DNA from: Bacteriovoracaceae bacterium
Lineage (GTDB): Bacteria; Bdellovibrionota; Bacteriovoracia; Bacteriovoracales; Bacteriovoracaceae
Reading direction: 5' to 3'
Assembly: GCA_016786485.1 (NCBI GenBank)
Contig: JAEUWD010000048.1
Coordinates: forward strand, 186,001-250,000
DNA: 64,000 nucleotides
Part shown: piece by piece, positions 24,508 to 42,686 of the stretch
Layout of the letters: every line of letters starts with the position of its first letter
Position numbering within the stretch: position 1 is the stretch's first letter
The notes under the pieces: generated by a model
Database searches by the model: none
The model's input: only the letters and a program-made list of their open reading frames with translations
What the model was told of the DNA's origin: nothing
Made by a program: the position numbers and the translations under genes

Positions 24508-24993
24508 TCAGGTAAGACTTTCCTTAATACTGGAAATAAAAGGAATCATATAAAGAATTTTCAAAATTAACCCGGCGAGTAAACCACTCACCACATCATC
24601 CATGACTACACCAAAACCGCTTTTGAGGTGATCAAAATAAGATACAGGCCAGGGCTTAAAAATATCAAAGATGCGAAAAAGTAAAAAAACCAAAATAAAA
24701 TTTACCAATGAAGCTTCTGGGACAAAACACCAGGCCCAAATGATTCCTACCACTTCGTCGATCACAATCCACCCTGGATCGAAATTTTTAGTTTGCTGCT
24801 GATAGTAATCCACCGCAAAGATAGCAGCGATTGTAACCGTCAGATTTAATAAACATAAAACGAGTAATGAGACGTCAAATTTAGCTATGTAAAAAAGAAC
24901 CAAAATTCCCGCCGCACTTCCGAAAGTTCCTGGTGCGATAGGGGCACATCCAACGCCGAAAAATGAGAGAAAAAGTTTATTAAGTCGGTTCAA
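24508..24993 (-). CDS. pgpA: Phosphatidylglycerophosphatase A
   Basis: 161 residues with several membrane segments and the PgpA signatures GVGCAPIAPGTFGS near the N-terminus, IDEVVG, RIFDIFKPWPV and GVVMDDVVSGLLAG; the acidic residues bind the metal and phosphate. It dephosphorylates phosphatidylglycerophosphate to make phosphatidylglycerol at the inner membrane. It starts with TTG at 24993; AAGG six bases upstream supports this, and no internal ATG would keep the N-terminal motif. It precedes recA on the same strand. Confidence 0.93.
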   Translation of the reverse strand: MNRLNKLFLSFFGVGCAPIAPGTFGSAAGILVLFYIAKFDVSLLVLCLLNLTVTIAAIFAVDYYQQQTKNFDPGWIVIDEVVGIIWAWCFVPEASLVNFILVFLLFRIFDIFKPWPVSYFDHLKSGFGVVMDDVVSGLLAGLILKILYMIPFISSIKESLT

Positions 24994-25062
24994 AGGTGTG
25001 CCTTGTAATCTCTTAGTGAATTGTTTATCTTCTTAGCATTAGTTTAGCGGAAGGGAAGTGAG

Positions 25063-26310
25063 ATGAATAGACCTGACTATCTAGAGAAATATCACTTCAA
25101 TTGGGATGTCTTTGACGTCATCGTGGGTGGTAAATCTTCACTAGATATCAATTCTTATGTAGGTGAAATCGATAATCTCGATGACGTTTATAAATTCGTG
25201 AAGGGCTACGGTTTTGATCTCGCCGATCCTGTTCAAAGTGCTGAGCTCTTTGGAAATTTTCAAGAGGCCCTACAATTTATTCGACGATATTTTTTAAAAG
25301 AAGGAAACCCTGAAGGTTTACATCTGCTTATCCCAGATAAGCTATCGACGATTGGAAATGTGGCGGATTTATTTTTACTGGCAACACGTAGTCCTGCTTC
25401 AGGAGGAACACAGACAGAAAGTTTATGGGCCGGAATAGTGCTGAAAGTTATGCACACCATTCTGCACGCAGACAAAGACTTACGTTACGGATATTTTTCT
25501 GCCATTCAATTTCAAATTTTTGATAGATTTTATAAGTATATTCATCGTGATGAAGAAAATAAATTATTTTTGCGAAGCCTTGATGGTTCTCATAAAATTT
25601 TATTGGAAGATTTTCAAACAAAATCAAAAAAATCTCGTGATAGTATTATCATTAAACTGCTTCATAAGGCAGAAATTGTAGCAGATGAACTTTTTGATAG
25701 AGTTGGCGTACGAATTATTACATCACAAGCCTCTGATGCGCTCGGTGTTCTCAAATTCCTATATAAAAACAATGTTATCAGTGTGCAAAATATAAAGCCG
25801 TCACGTTCACAAAACTCACTGGTTGATTTAGAAAAATATCGAACGGGCTATGTTAATTTAGAAAAGAAAGCTATTCGTGAAAAATTATCAGAAGAAGAAT
25901 TTGCGCTAGAATGTGAAAAGTTAGCGCTTAAATGTGCTCCACAAAAAGTGGCACAGACAGAGACAAATCTCCATACTTCAAAAGAGTACCGAGCTATTCA
26001 TTTTACCTGTCGACAATTGATTAAATACAAAAACCCATTTGTTTCGGAATTTTCTGAAGTTCGCCGTTTGGCCAAGATTGATCCGAATAATGATTTGGCG
26101 AAAAAAGTTTTAAGCCTAGACACTTCTTCAATTTCACGAGACGTGAGTTTCTTTTATCCTTTTGAAGTTCAAATTACGGATATTGAGAGTCATAAAATGA
26201 ATACGAAAGGTGAGGCTTCACACGAAGAATATAAAAAATCTCAATTGCATTCAGCGATGAAGCGTATTTTTAAGCCATTGATTGAGCAATTGAATTTAAC
26301 TGTTGTATAA
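25063..26310 (+). CDS. Protein with RelA/SpoT synthetase-like motifs and a novel N-terminal half
   Basis: 415 residues, soluble. The second half carries a set of motifs in the order of (p)ppGpp synthetase domains: LFDRVGVRII (Asp212, Arg217) like FDLYAIRVI, EYRAIHFT (Tyr309, His313) like GYQSLHTTV, and FEVQITD (Glu368, Gln370) like VEVQIRT, followed by SHKMNTKGEASHEEYK like MHxxAExGxAAHWxYK. The catalytic Asp and Glu are both kept. There is no HD hydrolase, TGS or ACT domain. The first 190 residues match nothing that I know. I recall a family of uncharacterised deltaproteobacterial proteins of this kind (TIGR04552), not verified. AAGGGAAG precedes the ATG. Its last 41 bp overlap the convergent hydrolase gene. 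Confidence 0.8.
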   Translation: MNRPDYLEKYHFNWDVFDVIVGGKSSLDINSYVGEIDNLDDVYKFVKGYGFDLADPVQSAELFGNFQEALQFIRRYFLKEGNPEGLHLLIPDKLSTIGNVADLFLLATRSPASGGTQTESLWAGIVLKVMHTILHADKDLRYGYFSAIQFQIFDRFYKYIHRDEENKLFLRSLDGSHKILLEDFQTKSKKSRDSIIIKLLHKAEIVADELFDRVGVRIITSQASDALGVLKFLYKNNVISVQNIKPSRSQNSLVDLEKYRTGYVNLEKKAIREKLSEEEFALECEKLALKCAPQKVAQTETNLHTSKEYRAIHFTCRQLIKYKNPFVSEFSEVRRLAKIDPNNDLAKKVLSLDTSSISRDVSFFYPFEVQITDIESHKMNTKGEASHEEYKKSQLHSAMKRIFKPLIEQLNLTVV

Positions 26311-27175
26311 ACAATTCCATTCTTTCATTAATCAGATCCGGAAAATCGACTTGAGGCACGTGACTGCCATCGCAAATACTATAGTACTGCGAATGAGGAA
26401 TCATTTTTGCGGTTAGCTTTTGAATATAAGGTGGAATAACTTGATCGTCATCACCACTGACAACAAGTGCTGGACATTGAATGCTCTCAAGGTGCTGGAT
26501 AATTTCATGATTTGATAATGAATTAAAGAGCTGAAAGAAAAGATCGGGACTAAGTTCACCCACTTTTTGTAGATAGACTTCAATAAATTGAGTATCGACT
26601 TTTTTAGTATTAAAGCCACCCATGTGAATGATTTTTTTTGCGAGCGGATTAAGATGACTTTTTTTCCAGAACGAAGTAAAAATTTTAGGAAATGCTTGGT
26701 TTAAATCTTCCAAGAATGGGGTGGCCAAATCCATAATGTTCGAATTCAACATGACATCACGAGTGGAAATAACAGTTCCAGAAATAAGAACAATTCCTTT
26801 TAGAAAACTTGGATTGTATCGGGCCACTTCCATGGTTACGTTACTACCCATACTGTGACCTAGCATAACGATGTTACCAAATTGATAGTGCTGAATCAGA
26901 TTACTGATATCGGTCGCTAGTTGTTGAATGGTAATTCGTTCGATTTGATCTCGTCCGCTACTTAAAAAATGCCCACGATAATCATAATATAAAATTTGAT
27001 AATTTTTTGTGAAGTAGGGTAATTGAAAATCCCAATGATGATGGCTACAAACTAAGCCAGAATTAAAAATTAACAGAGGCTTTTCTGAAGTGTAATCATT
27101 CAGCTCAAAATTAGTATGAAAAACAATATGAACCTGTTCTTCAGCAGCGTAAGTAAATTTTTTAAATGTCGTCAT
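26270..27175 (-). CDS. Alpha/beta-fold hydrolase
   Basis: 301 residues. The nucleophile elbow GHSMG places the catalytic Ser at 108, with probable acid in VVSGDDDQVIP and His in CDGSHVPQVDF. YYDYRGHFLSSGRD resembles the HGxP-adjacent oxyanion region of esterases and haloperoxidase-like hydrolases. It has no signal peptide, so it is cytoplasmic; the substrate is unknown. It overlaps the upstream FHA-like gene by 4 bp (ATGA) and is the last gene of a six-gene minus-strand operon. Confidence 0.88.
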   Translation of the reverse strand: MTTFKKFTYAAEEQVHIVFHTNFELNDYTSEKPLLIFNSGLVCSHHHWDFQLPYFTKNYQILYYDYRGHFLSSGRDQIERITIQQLATDISNLIQHYQFGNIVMLGHSMGSNVTMEVARYNPSFLKGIVLISGTVISTRDVMLNSNIMDLATPFLEDLNQAFPKIFTSFWKKSHLNPLAKKIIHMGGFNTKKVDTQFIEVYLQKVGELSPDLFFQLFNSLSNHEIIQHLESIQCPALVVSGDDDQVIPPYIQKLTAKMIPHSQYYSICDGSHVPQVDFPDLINERMELFIQQLNSIAQSMA

Positions 27176-27561
27176 GAAAGATTTTTTTGTAACTCTTTTA
27201 AAAGTGCAGCGCCTTCAGGATTAGTATTAAGTAGCGTTTCAACTTCGCGATTAAGAAATTCGCGTTTAGTCAGCTGGGCCGAAGTCGAGAATTCAAGGAT
27301 TTTAAATTCTACATTTTCAAATGCAATTGTATCATTCACTTTTAGGTTCTTACTTAAAGTGGCGGTTTTTGAATTCAATTTATAGCGAGTTTTTTGATTA
27401 TTAAAATGCAATTGCTCATCGATAATATCTAAAAAAAAGGTCCCTTCATGTTCAATAAAAACATCACAAAGTCGATTACCAATAGTTATAGAATTTTTAT
27501 GAAAAGTTCTCGTTCCGAGGAGGTCAGTATTGGTAGCAGATGTGATTTCGATTTTAATCAT
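27172..27561 (-). CDS. FHA-like domain protein
   Basis: 129 residues from the ATG at 27561 (a TTG at 27576 adds five). The strand pattern fits a forkhead-associated fold: SITIGNRLCDVFIEH near the start and LKVNDTIAFENVEFKILEF near the end. The usual IGR reads IGN and there is no clear SxxH, so phosphothreonine binding is doubtful. A helical C-terminus (NREVETLLNTNPEGAALLKE) follows. It lies between recG and the hydrolase and is tightly coupled to both. Confidence 0.65.
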   Translation of the reverse strand: MIKIEITSATNTDLLGTRTFHKNSITIGNRLCDVFIEHEGTFFLDIIDEQLHFNNQKTRYKLNSKTATLSKNLKVNDTIAFENVEFKILEFSTSAQLTKREFLNREVETLLNTNPEGAALLKELQKNLS

Positions 27562-27584
27562 AACTGTATTATACAAACAAATAC

Positions 27585-33857: not shown

Positions 33858-33949
33858 TAATTCTTTCGGCAAAATTTTCCGACCGTAAAAAAAGATTAAT
33901 GAAGTTTTCACGACGGTCGAAACGGAGTCTAGACAGATATGACATCTGT
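33858..33949 (+). promoter_or_regulatory. Candidate FliA-type promoter and leader hairpins of first flagellin
   Basis: TAATTCTT (33858) and TCCGACCG (33878), 12 bp apart, resemble a weak sigma-28 promoter (TAAAGTTT-N11-GCCGATAA). CGACCGT (33880-33886) is repeated inverted as ACGGTCG (33913-33919). ACAGAT (33933-33938) and ATCTGT (33944-33949) form a 6-bp hairpin in the leader. The promoter call is tentative; the inverted repeats are plain. Confidence 0.35.
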
Positions 33950-33998
33950 TGGAATAAATCAGGACGATTTATTCATCCCTATAATCAAGGAGGATTGC

Positions 33999-34850
33999 AT
34001 GGGATTAAGGATTAACACCAACGTCTCCTCGATCAACGCACAAAGAAATTTGCGTTCGACGAGATTAGACTTAGACAAGACTTTGGAGCGTCTAGCTTCA
34101 GGTAGTCGTATTAACCGCGCAGGTGACGACGCCGCCGGTCTCGCTATCTCAGAAAATTTAAGAGCACAGATCAGAGGTCTGAAGCAAGCTCAGAGAAACG
34201 CTGAAGATGGTATTTCATTAGTACAAATCGCTGAAGGTGGTTTGGCCGAATCTTCAAACATCTTGATCAGATTGCGCGAACTTGCAGTACAAGCCGCTTC
34301 TGATACTATCGGACCAACTGAACGTAAGTTCTTAAACGTTGAATTCGAACAGTTAACTCAAGAGATTGACAGAATTGCAAACGCGACAGAATTTAACCGC
34401 GTTCCATTATTAAACGGAACTGGTGCCGTTTTTGATATTCAAATCGGAACTAGAAATGACCCTATAAATGACCGTTTAACGTTCGATGCATCAAGCGCTG
34501 ACGTTAACGTAGCAGCTTTAGGTCTAAACCTAGCTTCAGTTGCGGACAAAATTTCTGCACAGAACTCACTAGCAGCTATCGACCAAGCAATTGTTTCGAT
34601 TTCAGCTATCAGAGCGGACTTCGGGGCCATGCAGAACAGATTACAATCGACAATTAACAACGTTGCTATCAGCGTAGAAAACTTATCAGCTGCGAACTCT
34701 CGTGTTCGTGACACTGATGTGGCTGAAGCGACAAGTGAATTGACGAAAAATAACATTTTAATGAACGCAGGTACATCAGTACTCGCTCAAGCTAACGTTA
34801 CTACCAAGAGTGCAATCGGTCTTATTCAAGCAGCGTCTAACGCAGGCTAG
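33999..34850 (+). CDS. fliC: Flagellin (first copy)
   Basis: 283 residues with the conserved flagellin ends: N-terminal MGLRINTNVSSINAQRNL and LASGSRINRAGDDAAGLAIS, C-terminal LSAANSRVRDTDVAEATSEL and a helix rich in Ala/Gln. The variable centre is very short. AAGGAGGA seven bases upstream fixes the start at 33999; the in-frame ATG at 33939 lies in the loop of a leader hairpin and has no ribosome-binding site. It forms the flagellar filament. A second copy follows after 215 bp. Confidence 0.96.
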   Translation: MGLRINTNVSSINAQRNLRSTRLDLDKTLERLASGSRINRAGDDAAGLAISENLRAQIRGLKQAQRNAEDGISLVQIAEGGLAESSNILIRLRELAVQAASDTIGPTERKFLNVEFEQLTQEIDRIANATEFNRVPLLNGTGAVFDIQIGTRNDPINDRLTFDASSADVNVAALGLNLASVADKISAQNSLAAIDQAIVSISAIRADFGAMQNRLQSTINNVAISVENLSAANSRVRDTDVAEATSELTKNNILMNAGTSVLAQANVTTKSAIGLIQAASNAG

Positions 34851-35042
34851 GAATTGGCTAGATAGTGTTCTTGATTTGTTTAGTAACATGGCGTTTTTTG
34901 TAAGTAACCTGCAAGTTAACTATAGAAGTTAACACCATGACGTGGGTATGACGTTCATCGGGTAAGGTATTTGTTTTTTTGTAACTTATTAATAACAACT
35001 TAAGTGGACATGAAGTCCGCTAGCTTAAACAGGAGGTTTTAT
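34851..35042 (+). promoter_or_regulatory. Intergenic leader of second flagellin with hairpins
   Basis: Structure seen: GTTAAC repeated at 34915-34920 and 34928-34933; the direct repeat ATGACG around 34936-34953; and a hairpin of GGAC (35006-35009) with GTCC (35015-35018), inside a wider TTAAG/CTTAA pairing (35000-35028). The hairpin ends just before AGGAGG at 35031. No convincing promoter or T-tract terminator is seen, so read-through from the first flagellin is possible. Confidence 0.4.
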
Positions 35043-35063
35043 ATGCGTAACAACGGAGCCTAA
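35043..35063 (+). CDS. Six-codon leader ORF before second flagellin
   Basis: ATG at 35043 encodes MRNNGA and stops at 35061-35063, two bases before the flagellin ATG at 35066. The best Shine-Dalgarno of the region, AGGAGG (35031-35036), is spaced for this mini-ORF, while CGGAG inside it is spaced for the flagellin. This is a translational-coupling layout; no function of the peptide is implied. Confidence 0.5.
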   Translation: MRNNGA

Positions 35064-35065
35064 AA

Positions 35066-35899
35066 ATGGGAATTAGAATTAATACAAACGTTGCTTCATT
35101 AGCAGCGCAGAGAAATTTAGGAATTACGAACAATGCTTTGAAAGATAATTTTGCCAAATTATCTTCAGGCTCAAGAATTACCAAGGCCAGCGACGATGCC
35201 GCTGGACTAGCAATAAGTGAGAAGTTGCGTGCACAAATTAGAGGGATTAGACAAGCTAAGAGGAACGCAGAAGACGGTATCTCACTTATTCAGACAGCTG
35301 AAGGTGGATTACAGGAAATCTCTAATATCGTTATTCGACTTAGAGAACTTGCCATCCAAGCAGCTTCTGATACGGTTGGAAACACTGAACGATCTTTCAC
35401 GGATGTTGAATTTCAAAGTCTTAAAGACGAAGTTCAGCGTATCGCGATGGTCTCAGAATTCAACGGTAGAAAGTTACTTAACGGCACCGGTGGGCTGGTT
35501 GAAGTTCAAGTCGGTATCTATAATGATGCTTTTCAAGACCGACTTAAATTCGATTCCAGTGCAATCGACGCCACTTTGGAAGCCCTCGGGATCGCTGCAG
35601 AAGGGATCTCAACCAAAGAAGGAGCACAAATATCGTTGCAAGCTTTGGACGATGCTCTGGTTAAGATTAACGGTAATAGAGCGGAGCTGGGAGCACTACA
35701 AAACAGACTTGGTTCAATTGTTAATACTCAAGGCATTAACGATGAAAACCTTAGTGCGGCCAACTCAAGAATTCGAGATGTGGATGTTGCCACTGAAACA
35801 GCAGATTTGACTAAGAATTCGATTCTTAATCGAGCTGGTGTCTCGGTCTTAACACAGGCGAACGCATCTCCAGAGGCAGCCTTGAAATTGATCGGATAA
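35066..35899 (+). CDS. fliC: Flagellin (second copy)
   Basis: 277 residues, clearly paralogous to the first flagellin: MGIRINTNVASLAAQRNL, SGSRITKASDDAAGLAISEK, and C-terminal LSAANSRIRDVDVATETADL. The central region is short and differs from the first copy. Multiple flagellins with separate positions in a sheathed or tapered filament are known in Bdellovibrio. It follows a six-codon leader ORF and is closed by a strong terminator. A 197-codon open frame in another phase (35217-35810) is a shadow of this gene. Confidence 0.96.
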   Translation: MGIRINTNVASLAAQRNLGITNNALKDNFAKLSSGSRITKASDDAAGLAISEKLRAQIRGIRQAKRNAEDGISLIQTAEGGLQEISNIVIRLRELAIQAASDTVGNTERSFTDVEFQSLKDEVQRIAMVSEFNGRKLLNGTGGLVEVQVGIYNDAFQDRLKFDSSAIDATLEALGIAAEGISTKEGAQISLQALDDALVKINGNRAELGALQNRLGSIVNTQGINDENLSAANSRIRDVDVATETADLTKNSILNRAGVSVLTQANASPEAALKLIG

Positions 35900-38277: not shown

Positions 38278-38496
38278 ATGAGATCTATTGTAAAATCCGC
38301 GAGCGGTCAGGCGCTTTTAGAATACGTGCTAGTGCTCGTTTTCATTACCTCGACTGGATATCTTTTCTTGGGGAAATTCACCCAGTTTGTTTCCAGCTCA
38401 GTTGGTAATCTCAATCATATTTTATCCATTAATTTAAAAACTGGTGTGTGCGAAACAGAATGCTATTTTAAGGGATATAAGAATGAAAATAATTAA
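38278..38496 (+). CDS. Flp/TadE-like minor prepilin
   Basis: 72 residues. SASG-QALLEYVLVL gives cleavage after Gly10 and Glu15 at +5, then a hydrophobic helix of about 20 residues. The C-terminus carries two cysteines (GVCETECYF) that could form a disulfide. It overlaps the prepilin peptidase gene by 14 bp, so the two are co-translated. It is probably a minor pilin subunit. Confidence 0.8.
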   Translation: MRSIVKSASGQALLEYVLVLVFITSTGYLFLGKFTQFVSSSVGNLNHILSINLKTGVCETECYFKGYKNENN

Positions 38497-39007
38497 TCCT
38501 GAAACTAACAGCATTCTTTATTTTTTCTTGCTGGCCGAATTAATTTGGATTTCTCTTCTAGATATCAAAACTCAAAAAATTAAAAATTATTGGTCCATTT
38601 TAAACATAGCTGTTTTTTTCTTTTTGATTGTTTTTGCTAGCGAAACTTACCCTCTGAAGATTGCTATGTTTTATTATTCGTTTGGTTTTTTATTCGTCGG
38701 GTTTCTGCTCTTCTTGATAAAAATTATGGGGGCTGGTGATATTAAATATCTTTTCTCGTTTTTCCTCATTTTGCCCTTAGGAATTCATCAAGATATGTTT
38801 AATCGCCTTATTGTTTTCACCGGCATCTGTGCCTTCGTTTTTTTGACTTTCAATTTGGTCAAAAACTACAAAATTTTATTCTCGGCCTTAAAAGAAAAAA
38901 AATATGGATTGATCAAAAATTGTTTTGGAACAAAGTTTGCGTTTTCACCAGTTATTTTGATTACGTGGATATGGTTTGGAGTAGATAGTGGTAAATTTGG
39001 TTTCTAA
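38483..39007 (+). CDS. tadV: Prepilin peptidase, TadV/CpaA (A24 family)
   Basis: 174 residues with about five TM helices. The two catalytic aspartates of aspartic prepilin peptidases are visible: LLDIKTQ (Asp about 27) and the GxGD-type motif MGAGDIK (Asp about 86). The start is the ATG at 38483, with AAGGGA eight bases upstream; the frame opens earlier at 38444, but that adds sequence inside the previous gene. It should cut the five G-Q-x-x-x-E prepilins encoded around it. Confidence 0.9.
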   Translation: MKIINPETNSILYFFLLAELIWISLLDIKTQKIKNYWSILNIAVFFFLIVFASETYPLKIAMFYYSFGFLFVGFLLFLIKIMGAGDIKYLFSFFLILPLGIHQDMFNRLIVFTGICAFVFLTFNLVKNYKILFSALKEKKYGLIKNCFGTKFAFSPVILITWIWFGVDSGKFGF

Positions 39008-39293
39008 TTCGAAAGGCCAGTCACTGGTTGAATATATTCTTTTGATGGTACTGGTGAGTATAGTCTTCACCGTTATTATTAATAGCCAAATTATGACTAA
39101 TCTCTTGAGTGATAATGGAAGTCTTATTCAAAATACAAAATCGACGATTGAATTTAATTATCGTCATGGCCACTCTGGATTCGATGCACTCGGCTCTGGT
39201 ACTAATACCACGGATTACAATGCTGCTAATCACGCTAGTTACTCGCTCAGTAACGGAACGTACTTCTTCGCACCGGCAGAGGCGTATCCATGA
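38988..39293 (+). CDS. TadE-like minor prepilin
   Basis: 101 residues from a GTG at 38988 with GGAG eight bases upstream, overlapping tadV by 20 bp. SKG-QSLVEYILLM gives cleavage after Gly10 and Glu15 at +5, followed by a hydrophobic helix. The C-terminal 60 residues are polar and rich in Asn, Ser and Tyr (NTTDYNAANHASYSLSNG), which fits an exposed surface or adhesive region. It overlaps the next prepilin gene by 4 bp. Confidence 0.8.
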   Translation: MVNLVSNSKGQSLVEYILLMVLVSIVFTVIINSQIMTNLLSDNGSLIQNTKSTIEFNYRHGHSGFDALGSGTNTTDYNAANHASYSLSNGTYFFAPAEAYP

Positions 39294-39829
39294 TAACAAA
39301 TAATAAAGGCCAATCCAGTATTGAATTTATTCTGATGTTTACGGTGACCTTCACTTTGGTTTTTTTATGGATTGTCCAAGCTTATAATTTGGGCGTTGGT
39401 TACCTCGCTCATTACGCTAACTTTATGGCGAGTCGAACTTACCTCACGCATGATACAGGTAGTATGAACACACGTGGGGCGGTTAGCGCGATATTAACGG
39501 ATTCTCAGAATGAAGCTCGCAGAGTGTATGAAAAATATCATCTCGAACTTTTTGTCAAAGGTTCATCCCAGTTTTCAGTTAATGCGCCCCTGACCGATGT
39601 TTTAACTGAATATGTTGGAACTTTTGTGGATTTCGATCAGCCCTTTTCATTTATTAAATTTATTGGAGGCAATACACGGATAAACCTAAGAACAGAATCA
39701 TTTCTGGGAAAAGAATCTCCCCGTGCAGAATGCAAACAGCAAATTTGCCAAGCCATGTTTGGGCAAGATTGTGATGGGATCAATGCTTCCTTGCAAAGTC
39801 ATATTACCGCTTTTGATGATGGATGTTGA
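39290..39829 (+). CDS. TadE-like prepilin with C-terminal cysteines
   Basis: 179 residues. NKG-QSSIEFILMF gives cleavage after Gly7 and Glu12 at +5, then one hydrophobic helix. The periplasmic region ends with four cysteines (ECKQQICQ, DCDG, final GC) that may form disulfides. It fits TadE/TadF pseudopilins that prime pilus assembly. It overlaps neighbours on both sides by a few bases. Confidence 0.85.
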   Translation: MITNNKGQSSIEFILMFTVTFTLVFLWIVQAYNLGVGYLAHYANFMASRTYLTHDTGSMNTRGAVSAILTDSQNEARRVYEKYHLELFVKGSSQFSVNAPLTDVLTEYVGTFVDFDQPFSFIKFIGGNTRINLRTESFLGKESPRAECKQQICQAMFGQDCDGINASLQSHITAFDDGC

Positions 39830-40308
39830 AAATGAAAAATGAGAAAGGACAATCACTATTTGAATTTGTTTTTTTTCTACCTGTGTTTATTATTTGCTTT
39901 TTAGTACTAACGGGATTGGGAAGTGCCATCAACGGTTCTATCAATCAACAAAAAATTACGCGTGGTTATTTTTTTATTCGTAATAAAAACAACTCGAACC
40001 TTCCTCGTCCTGTCAATGCGAGTGCTACCACATGGACAAAATTTGGTATGTTTTACGTTGGTTACAAAATAAATCAATTCTCTGGGACGAGCGATCAACC
40101 CGAAGCTGCTTGTTATAAGATTAACCTACCTTTTGCCTCAACTTTTTCTGATACAGATTGTTCAAATCCTTATAGCACTCTCACAACCGACTTCGTTCGC
40201 GTTTATACTGTCTTTGGACTCTGTGGCGCCACTTACGAGCGTAATGGTCAGGATGTGCGACCCAGTTCCAATTCCTGGAATCGCGAAGCTTGTCTACTTA
40301 TTGACTAG
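39823..40308 (+). CDS. TadE/TadF-like prepilin
   Basis: 161 residues. EKG-QSLFEFVFFL gives cleavage after Gly9 and Glu14 at +5, then a hydrophobic helix. The exposed region has four cysteines (AACYK, TDCSN, GLCGA, EACLL), suggesting two disulfides. It is the last of five prepilin-like genes. Starts at 39823 and 39832 are both possible. It is separated by 81 bp from cpaB by a region with a perfect palindrome. Confidence 0.82.
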   Translation: MLKMKNEKGQSLFEFVFFLPVFIICFLVLTGLGSAINGSINQQKITRGYFFIRNKNNSNLPRPVNASATTWTKFGMFYVGYKINQFSGTSDQPEAACYKINLPFASTFSDTDCSNPYSTLTTDFVRVYTVFGLCGATYERNGQDVRPSSNSWNREACLLID

Positions 40309-40335
40309 GGACATTTTTCCCCTTCAGTACCTGTG

Positions 40336-40355
40336 AATTTTAACATGTTAAAATT
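40336..40355. promoter_or_regulatory. Perfect 20-bp palindrome upstream of cpaB
   Basis: AATTTTAACATGTTAAAATT reads identically on both strands. It is centred 44 bp before the cpaB start codon, in an 81-bp gap that splits the prepilin genes from the assembly-machine genes. It is too AT-rich to be a good terminator and lacks a T-tract, so an operator is the better guess. Confidence 0.55.
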
Positions 40356-40389
40356 TAAGTTGTGAATATTCTATGAAAAGTGAGTAGTT

Positions 40390-41205
40390 ATGAATAGACG
40401 TGCATTTACTTTAAGTTTGGTCATCGCAGGGATTGCGATGTTTATGGTTTACTCTTACATCAAAGGTAAAGAAGCTGAATATGTAAAATCATATGGGCAA
40501 TCAGTCGCCGTTGTTGTCGCGCAAGCGGATGTAAAAGAATTGGAATTACTTGATGACAGAAAAGTAATGGTCGTCAACGTTCCAGAAAAATTTGTGCAAC
40601 CTGGAGCTCTTCGAAATATTTCTGAAATTGATAACATGTATGCGGCCGTTCCCATTCTTAAAGGCGAACAAATTACTAAAACGCGCGTGACTCATCCAGG
40701 TGGTAGAACTGGTCTAGCCAGTCAGGTTGCTGTTGGTAAAAGAGCGATCTCCATTCGTGTTTCTGATGAAACCGCTGTCGCAAAATTAATTAAACCAGGT
40801 GACCGTGTGGATCTGGTGGCTTTGATTGATTATGCTGGTGGTAAAAAAGATATGATTAAAGTGAAGACAGTTTTACAAGATGTGCTTGTGCTTTCAACTG
40901 GTCTGAAAGTGACAAATGCGATTCCACTTATTGCTGAAAAAACGGATGCTGGTTATCAAACACGAAACCTAAATAGTTATACCGGTTTCAGCACCATCAC
41001 TCTGGAACTTACTCCATTCGAAGTTCAGAAAGTTATTTTCCTCGATTCCTTAGGCGGGAACGTGAGACTTAGTTTAAGAAACAATGACGATAAAACAATT
41101 GAAAGAATAAGTGTGACGAAAATTTTTGATGTCTTAGGCGAAGATGCCCCAGAAGCCAAATCGTATTTTGCCGAACAAAATGCGCGAACCCAAGGACGAA
41201 GATGA
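40390..41205 (+). CDS. cpaB: Tad pilus assembly protein CpaB/RcpC
   Basis: 271 residues. An N-terminal membrane anchor (about 7-24) is followed by an SAF-type domain (VVVAQADVKELELL, KGEQITKTRV) and the RcpC/CpaB domain with VAVGKRAISIRVSDETAV and PGDRVDLVAL. It is a periplasmic partner of the Tad secretin. It overlaps the secretin gene by 4 bp. Confidence 0.93.
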   Translation: MNRRAFTLSLVIAGIAMFMVYSYIKGKEAEYVKSYGQSVAVVVAQADVKELELLDDRKVMVVNVPEKFVQPGALRNISEIDNMYAAVPILKGEQITKTRVTHPGGRTGLASQVAVGKRAISIRVSDETAVAKLIKPGDRVDLVALIDYAGGKKDMIKVKTVLQDVLVLSTGLKVTNAIPLIAEKTDAGYQTRNLNSYTGFSTITLELTPFEVQKVIFLDSLGGNVRLSLRNNDDKTIERISVTKIFDVLGEDAPEAKSYFAEQNARTQGRR

Positions 41206-42686
41206 AAATTTACTTAACCTTTATTCTCTTTATTTCAATGGCGATGGCCCAGGATACTGTGCCTGAAAAAGAAATAGAAATCGAGTTAGGAATTGATCAA
41301 ATAGAAAAAGTCGATTTTGCTTACAGTACAAAAGTACAAGTAGGTAATGAGGGTATTATAGATCTTATTCTAGCTCCGCAAAAAAGAGAAATTACCTTCC
41401 GAGGAAAAAAAGAAGGTAAAACATCGATTACTGTTCGTGATTCGGTGGGTGAAATTAGACAAAAATATATCGTAAATATCAAGGGTAGTGCTAATGCCAA
41501 GACAGTCTCGGAGCTTAAAGAATTTTTAGGACAAGTCGAAGGTTTAGATATTGGAGTGAAAGGTGGAAAAGTCGTGGTCGGCGGTCATATCGTCGTTCCG
41601 ACGGATATTGGTTTAGTGGCAACAATTCTTCCTAAATACCCAGATGTTATTAATATTGTCGAATTATCACCGCAAACTCAAAGAATTATCGCCAAGAAAA
41701 TTAAAGATGAACTTAATCGAAATGGTTTACGTGATGTAAGCGTGCGAGTGGTTAACCAAACTTTCTGGCTAGAAGGTGTCGTCGGTAGTGACGGACAAAA
41801 ATCTCTTGCCGTGGCAATCGCGAATGCTTATATGCCAGATGGAATTCAGTCATTGATGAGAAATGCCGATGCTGCAAATATTCGTAAAAGAGATTTTTTG
41901 CTCGAATTCATTTCGGTCAATGAAAAGAAGCAACCACCACCAGCGAAAAAAATGGTGAAAGTCACGGCCCAATTTGTTGAGCTTACAAAAAACTATACGA
42001 AAATTTTTGGTTTTCAATGGGCCCCATTAATGAACCGTGATAATTCAAAAATTGAAATTAATCGTGACACAGATGGAACGGTAAATACCAATTCATCAAA
42101 TACGATTAGCGCTACCATTTCAGCCTTATTCCCACGCTTACAATCGGCTAAGAACGCGGGATACGCGCGAATTATTCAATCAGGTGTTGTTATCACGCAA
42201 GACCAGATGGCGGCTAACATTAAAAAGAACGATGTTACGACTTATACTACAGGTGCAGGTGAAACTCAGCGTGACGTTAGTGTTACCACTGGTTTTACGA
42301 TGGATGTAACTCCAAAAATTCTCGATCAAGAAAGAGTGGAATTAGGAGTCGGTTTAAACGTTTCCATGAATAAAACGATTACTTCAGGAACACAAAATAC
42401 TCCGTCAAATGCAACGAATGAAATAAAAACAAACTTAGTGGTGAAATCAAAAGAATCAGCAGTTCTGGGTGGGGTTGTTCAAGGTTCCGAAGCCACTGAT
42501 TACGATAAGGGTAATTTACTTGGTAATCCGCCAGAAAATACTTATCCATTATTTAATCTCATTCGTAAAAAAGATTTTAATAATCAGAAAACTCAGTACG
42601 TTATGTTTATAACTCCAGAAATTATTGCATCGGCATCAGATGGAGCAGAAGAGATACGTAAAAAATTTAGAAAACGTAGTCGTTAA
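41202..42686 (+). CDS. cpaC: Tad secretin CpaC/RcpA
   Basis: 494 residues with a signal peptide ending AMA (about residue 16). An N-terminal pilus-assembly domain (GIIDLILAPQKREITFRG, GKTSITVRD) and BON-like segments precede a C-terminal type II/III secretin domain (AQFVELTKNYTKIFGFQW, VTTGFTMDVTPKIL, KESAVLGGVV). It forms the outer-membrane channel of the Tad pilus. No separate pilotin gene is seen nearby. Confidence 0.93.
   Translation: MKIYLTFILFISMAMAQDTVPEKEIEIELGIDQIEKVDFAYSTKVQVGNEGIIDLILAPQKREITFRGKKEGKTSITVRDSVGEIRQKYIVNIKGSANAKTVSELKEFLGQVEGLDIGVKGGKVVVGGHIVVPTDIGLVATILPKYPDVINIVELSPQTQRIIAKKIKDELNRNGLRDVSVRVVNQTFWLEGVVGSDGQKSLAVAIANAYMPDGIQSLMRNADAANIRKRDFLLEFISVNEKKQPPPAKKMVKVTAQFVELTKNYTKIFGFQWAPLMNRDNSKIEINRDTDGTVNTNSSNTISATISALFPRLQSAKNAGYARIIQSGVVITQDQMAANIKKNDVTTYTTGAGETQRDVSVTTGFTMDVTPKILDQERVELGVGLNVSMNKTITSGTQNTPSNATNEIKTNLVVKSKESAVLGGVVQGSEATDYDKGNLLGNPPENTYPLFNLIRKKDFNNQKTQYVMFITPEIIASASDGAEEIRKKFRKRSR

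Follow-up and report, generated by a model that had tools for sequence, protein, structure and literature searches.

The protein encoded at positions 25063–26310 (+) of the window, the 64,000-nucleotide stretch of Bacteriovoracaceae DNA that was analyzed as a whole, is a TIGR04562/TIGR04552 family protein of 415 amino acids, and its fold and catalytic residues, as judged from sequence and a structural model, support its placement in the RelA/SpoT synthetase-fold family. It is probably a housekeeping and catalytically competent ATP-dependent pyrophosphokinase, the acceptor of which is probably not GDP or GTP. The gene is a core gene of Bdellovibrionota and occurs beside a normal long Rel.

Family membership and predicted fold

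The open reading frame starts with ATG and lies directly 3' of a Shine–Dalgarno-like sequence, GGAAGGGAAG (25049–25058, +), which was read from the sequence. In gross layout, the protein consists of a helical N-terminal region followed by the RelA/SpoT-fold synthetase core. It is matched over its full length by two unnamed NCBIfam families that have no function attached, namely TIGR04562 (403 bits against a curated cut-off of 140, E = 1e-120) and TIGR04552 (385.5 bits against a curated cut-off of 125, E = 3e-115). Both models also match 41 of 41 diverse family members, and named homologues come from genomes of Bacteriovoracaceae, Halobacteriovoraceae and Bdellovibrionales. The protein is thus a full member that does not differ from these families and not an orphan. 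In addition, its score with Pfam PF04607 (RelA_SpoT), 35.3 bits (E = 1.6e-8), exceeds the gathering threshold of 27 bits, and this model matches 31 of the 41 diverse members at E <= 0.1. The three motifs on which a sequence-only reading of this DNA was based, LFDRVGVRII (Asp212), EYRAIHFT (Tyr309 and His313) and FEVQITD (Glu368), were found in the translation with the same residue numbers; because PF04607 scores above its cut-off and both Asp212 and Glu368 are present in 100 of 100 homologues, they are real synthetase motifs and not chance resemblances.

The synthetase (SYN) core comprises residues 139–405 (25477–26277, +), as located by VIA, PF04607 and hhalign. An AlphaFold2 model of the full protein, built with 57 relatives, has a mean pLDDT of 85.7 and a pTM of 0.70, and its strands and helices follow the order of a RelA/SpoT synthetase. 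VIA alignment of the model (residues 139–386) with Staphylococcus aureus Rel gave Z = 11.1 over 135 residues, with an r.m.s.d. of 3.5 Å and 21% identity, and most other Rel and small alarmone synthetase (SAS) structures gave Z values of 7–11; next in the list was DNA polymerase lambda (Z = 6–8.5), a more distant fold of the nucleotidyltransferase type. The top Foldseek matches of the full-length model were RelP, RelQ and Rel, with no match at E <= 0.001. Profile alignment by hhalign of the family with Rel and SASs covered just the C-terminal 33 columns when the insertions described below were kept, and became a full alignment (probability 97.1, E = 6e-11) once both were cut out, pairing Lys190, Lys198, Asp212, Tyr309, His313 and Glu368 with the canonical Rel/SAS residues. 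The comparison of a model with Rel synthetase structures, which had been suggested as a check, therefore recovers the SYN core, and together with hhalign and conservation it bears out the earlier proposal of a core that has the synthetase fold and retains the two catalytic acids. Alignment with the SYN structures of Rel suggests that Asp212 and Glu368 would face one pocket. TGS and other C-terminal regulatory domains are missing, as the protein ends ten residues past the helices of the SYN core.

The N-terminal helical region (residues 1–138; 25063–25476, +) was delimited by AlphaFold2, Foldseek, VIA and conservation. When residues 1–146 were modeled alone, a helical structure with a pLDDT of 81.6 was obtained. 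This model has no meaningful match in the PDB (E values above 4 with Foldseek, highest Z of 3.4 with VIA), and a likeness to retroviral capsid domains at that Z value was read as a common helical arrangement. Conservation among 100 homologues is complete at His131 and nearly complete at His135 and Asp139. A Pfam search of the region found no domain. An HD domain may still precede SYN, although Pfam gave no match to one and the N-terminal model no fold match. The description of this domain as uncharacterized consequently stands, since neither Foldseek nor VIA gave a fold match for residues 1–138.

Donor and acceptor sides of the active site

Conservation was assessed in 100 non-redundant homologues, down to 26–30% identity, and the family was compared with 33 Rels and 13 SASs, some of the latter from Bdellovibrionota. 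Lys187, Lys190, Lys198, Asp212, Gly215, Arg217, Asn251, Asn302, Arg317, Glu368, Gln370, Gly383, Tyr390, Gln394 and Arg401 are invariant in all 100 homologues, and Ser194 is kept in 97. On the ATP-donor side, conservation and the Rel/SAS alignment identify the strand–helix of residues 187–198 (25621–25656, +), containing Lys187, Lys190, Ser194 and Lys198, as the counterpart of GRxKxxxSIxxK. The Asp212-Gly215-Arg217 motif (DxxGxR; 25696–25713, +) follows, in which Asp212 pairs with the Asp of Rels and SASs and is the predicted metal ligand. The Glu368-x-Gln370-Ile-x-Asp373 motif (26164–26181, +) is the counterpart of ExQIRT according to hhalign, with Glu368 as the predicted catalytic acid.

In FaRel2, ATP is contacted by R64, K66, S70, K74, R77, G93, R95, E145 and Q147, and the metal is located on D90 (PMC11782079). 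The first five of these positions are occupied here by residue 188, Lys190, Ser194, Lys198 and residue 201, the last of which adjoins the nearly invariant Lys202; G93, R95, E145, Q147 and D90 correspond to Gly215, Arg217, Glu368, Gln370 and Asp212. The Arg of GRxK is found in 33/33 Rels and 12/13 SASs, whereas residue 188 of the family is Ser, Ala, Pro or others. The donor half-site is thus kept except at the R64 position, which is adjoined by the invariant Lys187, and this Lys perhaps substitutes for the lost Arg.

The acceptor side has been rebuilt. AlphaFold2 secondary structure and the lengths of the family members define a helical hairpin that is specific to the family and lies in the G-loop (residues 252–301; 25816–25965, +). 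It comprises two helices in the model and is present in every member, with 36–52 residues between Asn251 and Asn302. A second, variable insertion (residues 325–358; 26035–26136, +), defined by alignment and lengths, is missing from the shorter Bdellovibrionia-type members. The large insertion noted in the sequence-only reading is therefore present, but as two insertions (about 252–301 and 325–358) rather than one. Between them lie Tyr309, residue 313 and Arg317 (25987–26013, +), placed by conservation and alignment. Tyr309 is predicted to stack on the acceptor base; it is retained in 93/100 homologues, with Phe in six and His in one, and the residue at 313 is His, Gln or Lys.

The canonical acceptor signatures are lost. 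A Lys four residues before the Tyr of the G-loop occurs in 33/33 Rels and 11/13 SASs, whereas the family has Thr or Ser there in 100/100 members, and the eleven residues preceding Tyr309 contain no conserved Lys or Arg among these homologues. The Arg of QIR is likewise found in 33/33 Rels and 11–12/13 SASs, whereas residue 372 of the family is Val, Thr, Met or Leu. Most of these G-loop Lys and QIR-Arg signatures are kept by SASs from Bdellovibrionota itself. Against the full range of SAS classes, the acceptor region is not alignable with confidence. SxH, a guanosine signature (PMC12226406) that likewise occurs in all 33 Rels and most of the SASs, is retained by 4/100 members. In these alignments, the family lacks the signatures characteristic of (p)ppGpp-making enzymes. 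From the loss of these signatures and the presence of a G-loop hairpin in their place, we infer that pyrophosphate is probably transferred from ATP to an acceptor different from GDP and GTP. However, swapping SYN signature motifs did not turn one specificity into the other (PMC12226406), and sequence alone therefore leaves GDP or GTP possible as the acceptor.

Compared with known systems, the family shares with Rel, RelA and SpoT the SYN fold (VIA Z = 10–11), the catalytic Asp and Glu, and the DxxGxR and ExQ motifs, but it lacks the TGS and C-terminal regulatory part as well as the GR-Arg, G-loop Lys, SxH and QIR-Arg. RelP and RelQ are its best Foldseek matches and give VIA Z values of 8.4–9.9 over about 150 residues; however, the family protein is about twice their length, with the extra N-terminal region, the G-loop hairpin and the loss of acceptor signatures. 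FaRel2 and CapRel (toxSAS) and the (p)ppApp synthetases Tas1 and Apk resemble it in fold, in most ATP-donor residues and in having an altered acceptor side, whereas the Apk signatures GxN and YH (PMC12226406) differ from those of the family.

Distribution and relation to Rel

In a survey of genomes of Bdellovibrionota plus 14 controls, TIGR04552 was present in 265/290 Bdellovibrionota genomes (214/229 of the good ones), nearly always as a single copy, and in 0/14 controls. The Bdellovibrionota genomes that do not have the gene are mostly small (1.2–2.4 Mb). One genome, G106, has two full-length copies (C24:1015-2193 and C114:7864-9039), each scoring about 426–430 bits. PF04607 was found in 113/114 genomes, nearly always in a long Rel of about 730–770 residues, and the source genome of the window carries its long Rel on a different contig. 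Genomes without the family gene (G003, G009, G012, G019 and G024) have a long Rel as well, so the family protein comes in addition to Rel. Among six evolved populations of Bdellovibrio NC01, one had a single-A deletion in the family gene as one of its high-frequency mutations (PMC9888234), which suggests that the gene is dispensable in laboratory co-culture.

A search of plasmids with the protein as query gave no matches, and a profile search of viral contigs found no relatives. Carriage by Microcystis phage MaAM05 (MW495066, 273,876 bases) was considered and dropped. This entry (MW495066.1) carries rpsA, rplU, rpmA, secE, nusG, trpS, fliA, secDF, tRNA-Trp and a type III secretion secretin; because of its rpsA, rplU, rpmA, secE, nusG, trpS, tRNA-Trp and secDF it was not taken as a phage, and it looks like a mislabeled piece of bacterial chromosome. 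The entry (L127 and L208) shows that the family also occurs in a lineage of about 30% identity.

The sequence-only reading had offered a toxSAS-like enzyme as another option. Unlike toxSASs and (p)ppApp synthetases, which are otherwise similar in the respects given above, the family gene has neither an antitoxin nor a delivery domain and is near-universal and syntenic: it is a single-copy chromosomal gene with fixed synteny, no antitoxin-like partner was found at the compared loci and PADLOC gave no match. A mobile toxSAS was consequently rejected owing to the conserved synteny and the absence of an antitoxin.

Candidate reactions and gene neighborhood

The activity, donor, chemistry and acceptor of the family protein can be proposed from these observations. 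Mg-ATP would bind to the conserved donor half-site formed by Lys190, Ser194, Lys198, Gly215, Arg217 and Gln370, and perhaps Lys187; Asp212, holding the metal, and Glu368 would then move the beta,gamma-pyrophosphate of ATP to an acceptor hydroxyl. The rebuilt G-loop (Tyr309, the helical hairpin, Asn251, Asn302 and Arg317) would hold the acceptor, and the enzyme would work alongside the canonical long Rel and not as its replacement. That the ATP site lacks its first Arg (GR) is a point against a pyrophosphokinase. This loss also fits proteins that have retained the fold with another chemistry (nucleotidyl transfer) or with none (a ligand sensor), as does the position of DNA polymerase lambda-type nucleotidyltransferases immediately behind Rels and SASs in the structural list; however, both catalytic acids are invariant throughout the phylum, as are most residues of the donor site, which is unexpected for a dead protein, and a change or loss of chemistry is regarded as improbable.

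Transfer to GDP or GTP by an unusual SAS, which would retain (p)ppGpp synthesis, use its N-terminal region for regulation and serve as a second source beside Rel, is more credible than this but still unlikely. The SYN fold and catalytic residues, the frequency of Tyr309 and the co-occurrence of Rel and a SAS in many bacteria are all consistent with it, whereas the family's loss of the G-loop Lys, SxH and QIR-Arg, most of which SASs of the same phylum retain, speaks against it. Thus, of the earlier suggestion of a small-alarmone or other pyrophosphokinase, the fold and catalytic acids stand, while a plain ppGpp-making SAS has been weakened by the loss of the guanosine-side signatures. The loss of the conserved G-loop Lys may instead be viewed in the light of the tRNA-modifying enzymes of this fold, in which the positive patch for nucleotide phosphates is reduced (PMC11782079), and the extra N-terminal region could, speculatively, bind RNA. 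A pyrophosphokinase acting on the 3' end of RNA or tRNA, in a regulatory role instead of as a toxin, is nevertheless quite improbable: no antitoxin gene or PADLOC match accompanies the family, a single-copy core gene of this kind would require tight control and FaRel2 itself aligns poorly (VIA Z = 4.2).

If the preferred pyrophosphokinase is active, the family would represent a core branch of such enzymes that spans the phylum, has a remodeled acceptor site and accompanies a normal Rel. It is conceivable, although this is put forward tentatively, that a core enzyme of a largely predatory phylum pyrophosphorylates an acceptor new to the superfamily and thereby produces an unrecorded signal or modification. 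The main RSH survey filtered SYNTH-domain matches at about E = 1e-4 (PMC3153485). In G042, a genome of the Bdellovibrio type, the family protein was missed by PF04607 at E = 0.01, and the family is therefore easily overlooked in catalogs of alarmone enzymes.

Possible acceptors would include a nucleotide-linked cofactor or lipid precursor, in view of the operon in which the shorter Bdellovibrionia-type genes are found. In 13/15 of these loci, the family gene is followed on the same strand by a PF01553 acyltransferase gene (PlsC type), mostly within about 20 bases, and the two form a tight operon. A PNP_UDP_1-like phosphorylase gene lies between them in three loci; the phosphorylase at L140, L146 and L155, from three Bdellovibrionota families, is weakly like the hopanoid-associated HpnG. 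In other families, a closely spaced gene pair lies downstream, the second gene of which encodes an iron–sulfur protein.

The layout in Bacteriovoracia is also conserved, with pgpA divergent upstream (position -1 in 65/67 loci showing pgpA) and an alpha/beta-hydrolase gene convergent downstream. In the window, pgpA (phosphatidylglycerophosphatase A; PF04608, E = 1e-39) occupies 24508–24993 (-), and the gene for the alpha/beta-fold hydrolase (PF00561), at 26270–27175 (-), overlaps the 3' end of the family gene by 41 bases. pgpA forms a block with recA, recX and alaS that is common in bacteria, and its adjacency was therefore given little weight as a lipid link. Farther along, 27172–27576 (-) encodes a 133-residue protein with no Pfam or NCBIfam match, which has a conserved position across about 60 related loci and by eye is like a small FHA-type domain. 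A tandem pair of flagellin genes is located at 33939–35899 (+), and the region 38444–42686 (+) contains a prepilin-peptidase-like gene (Peptidase_A24), two small open reading frames with no Pfam match and a secretin gene, a set that resembles a Tad/Flp-type pilus cluster.
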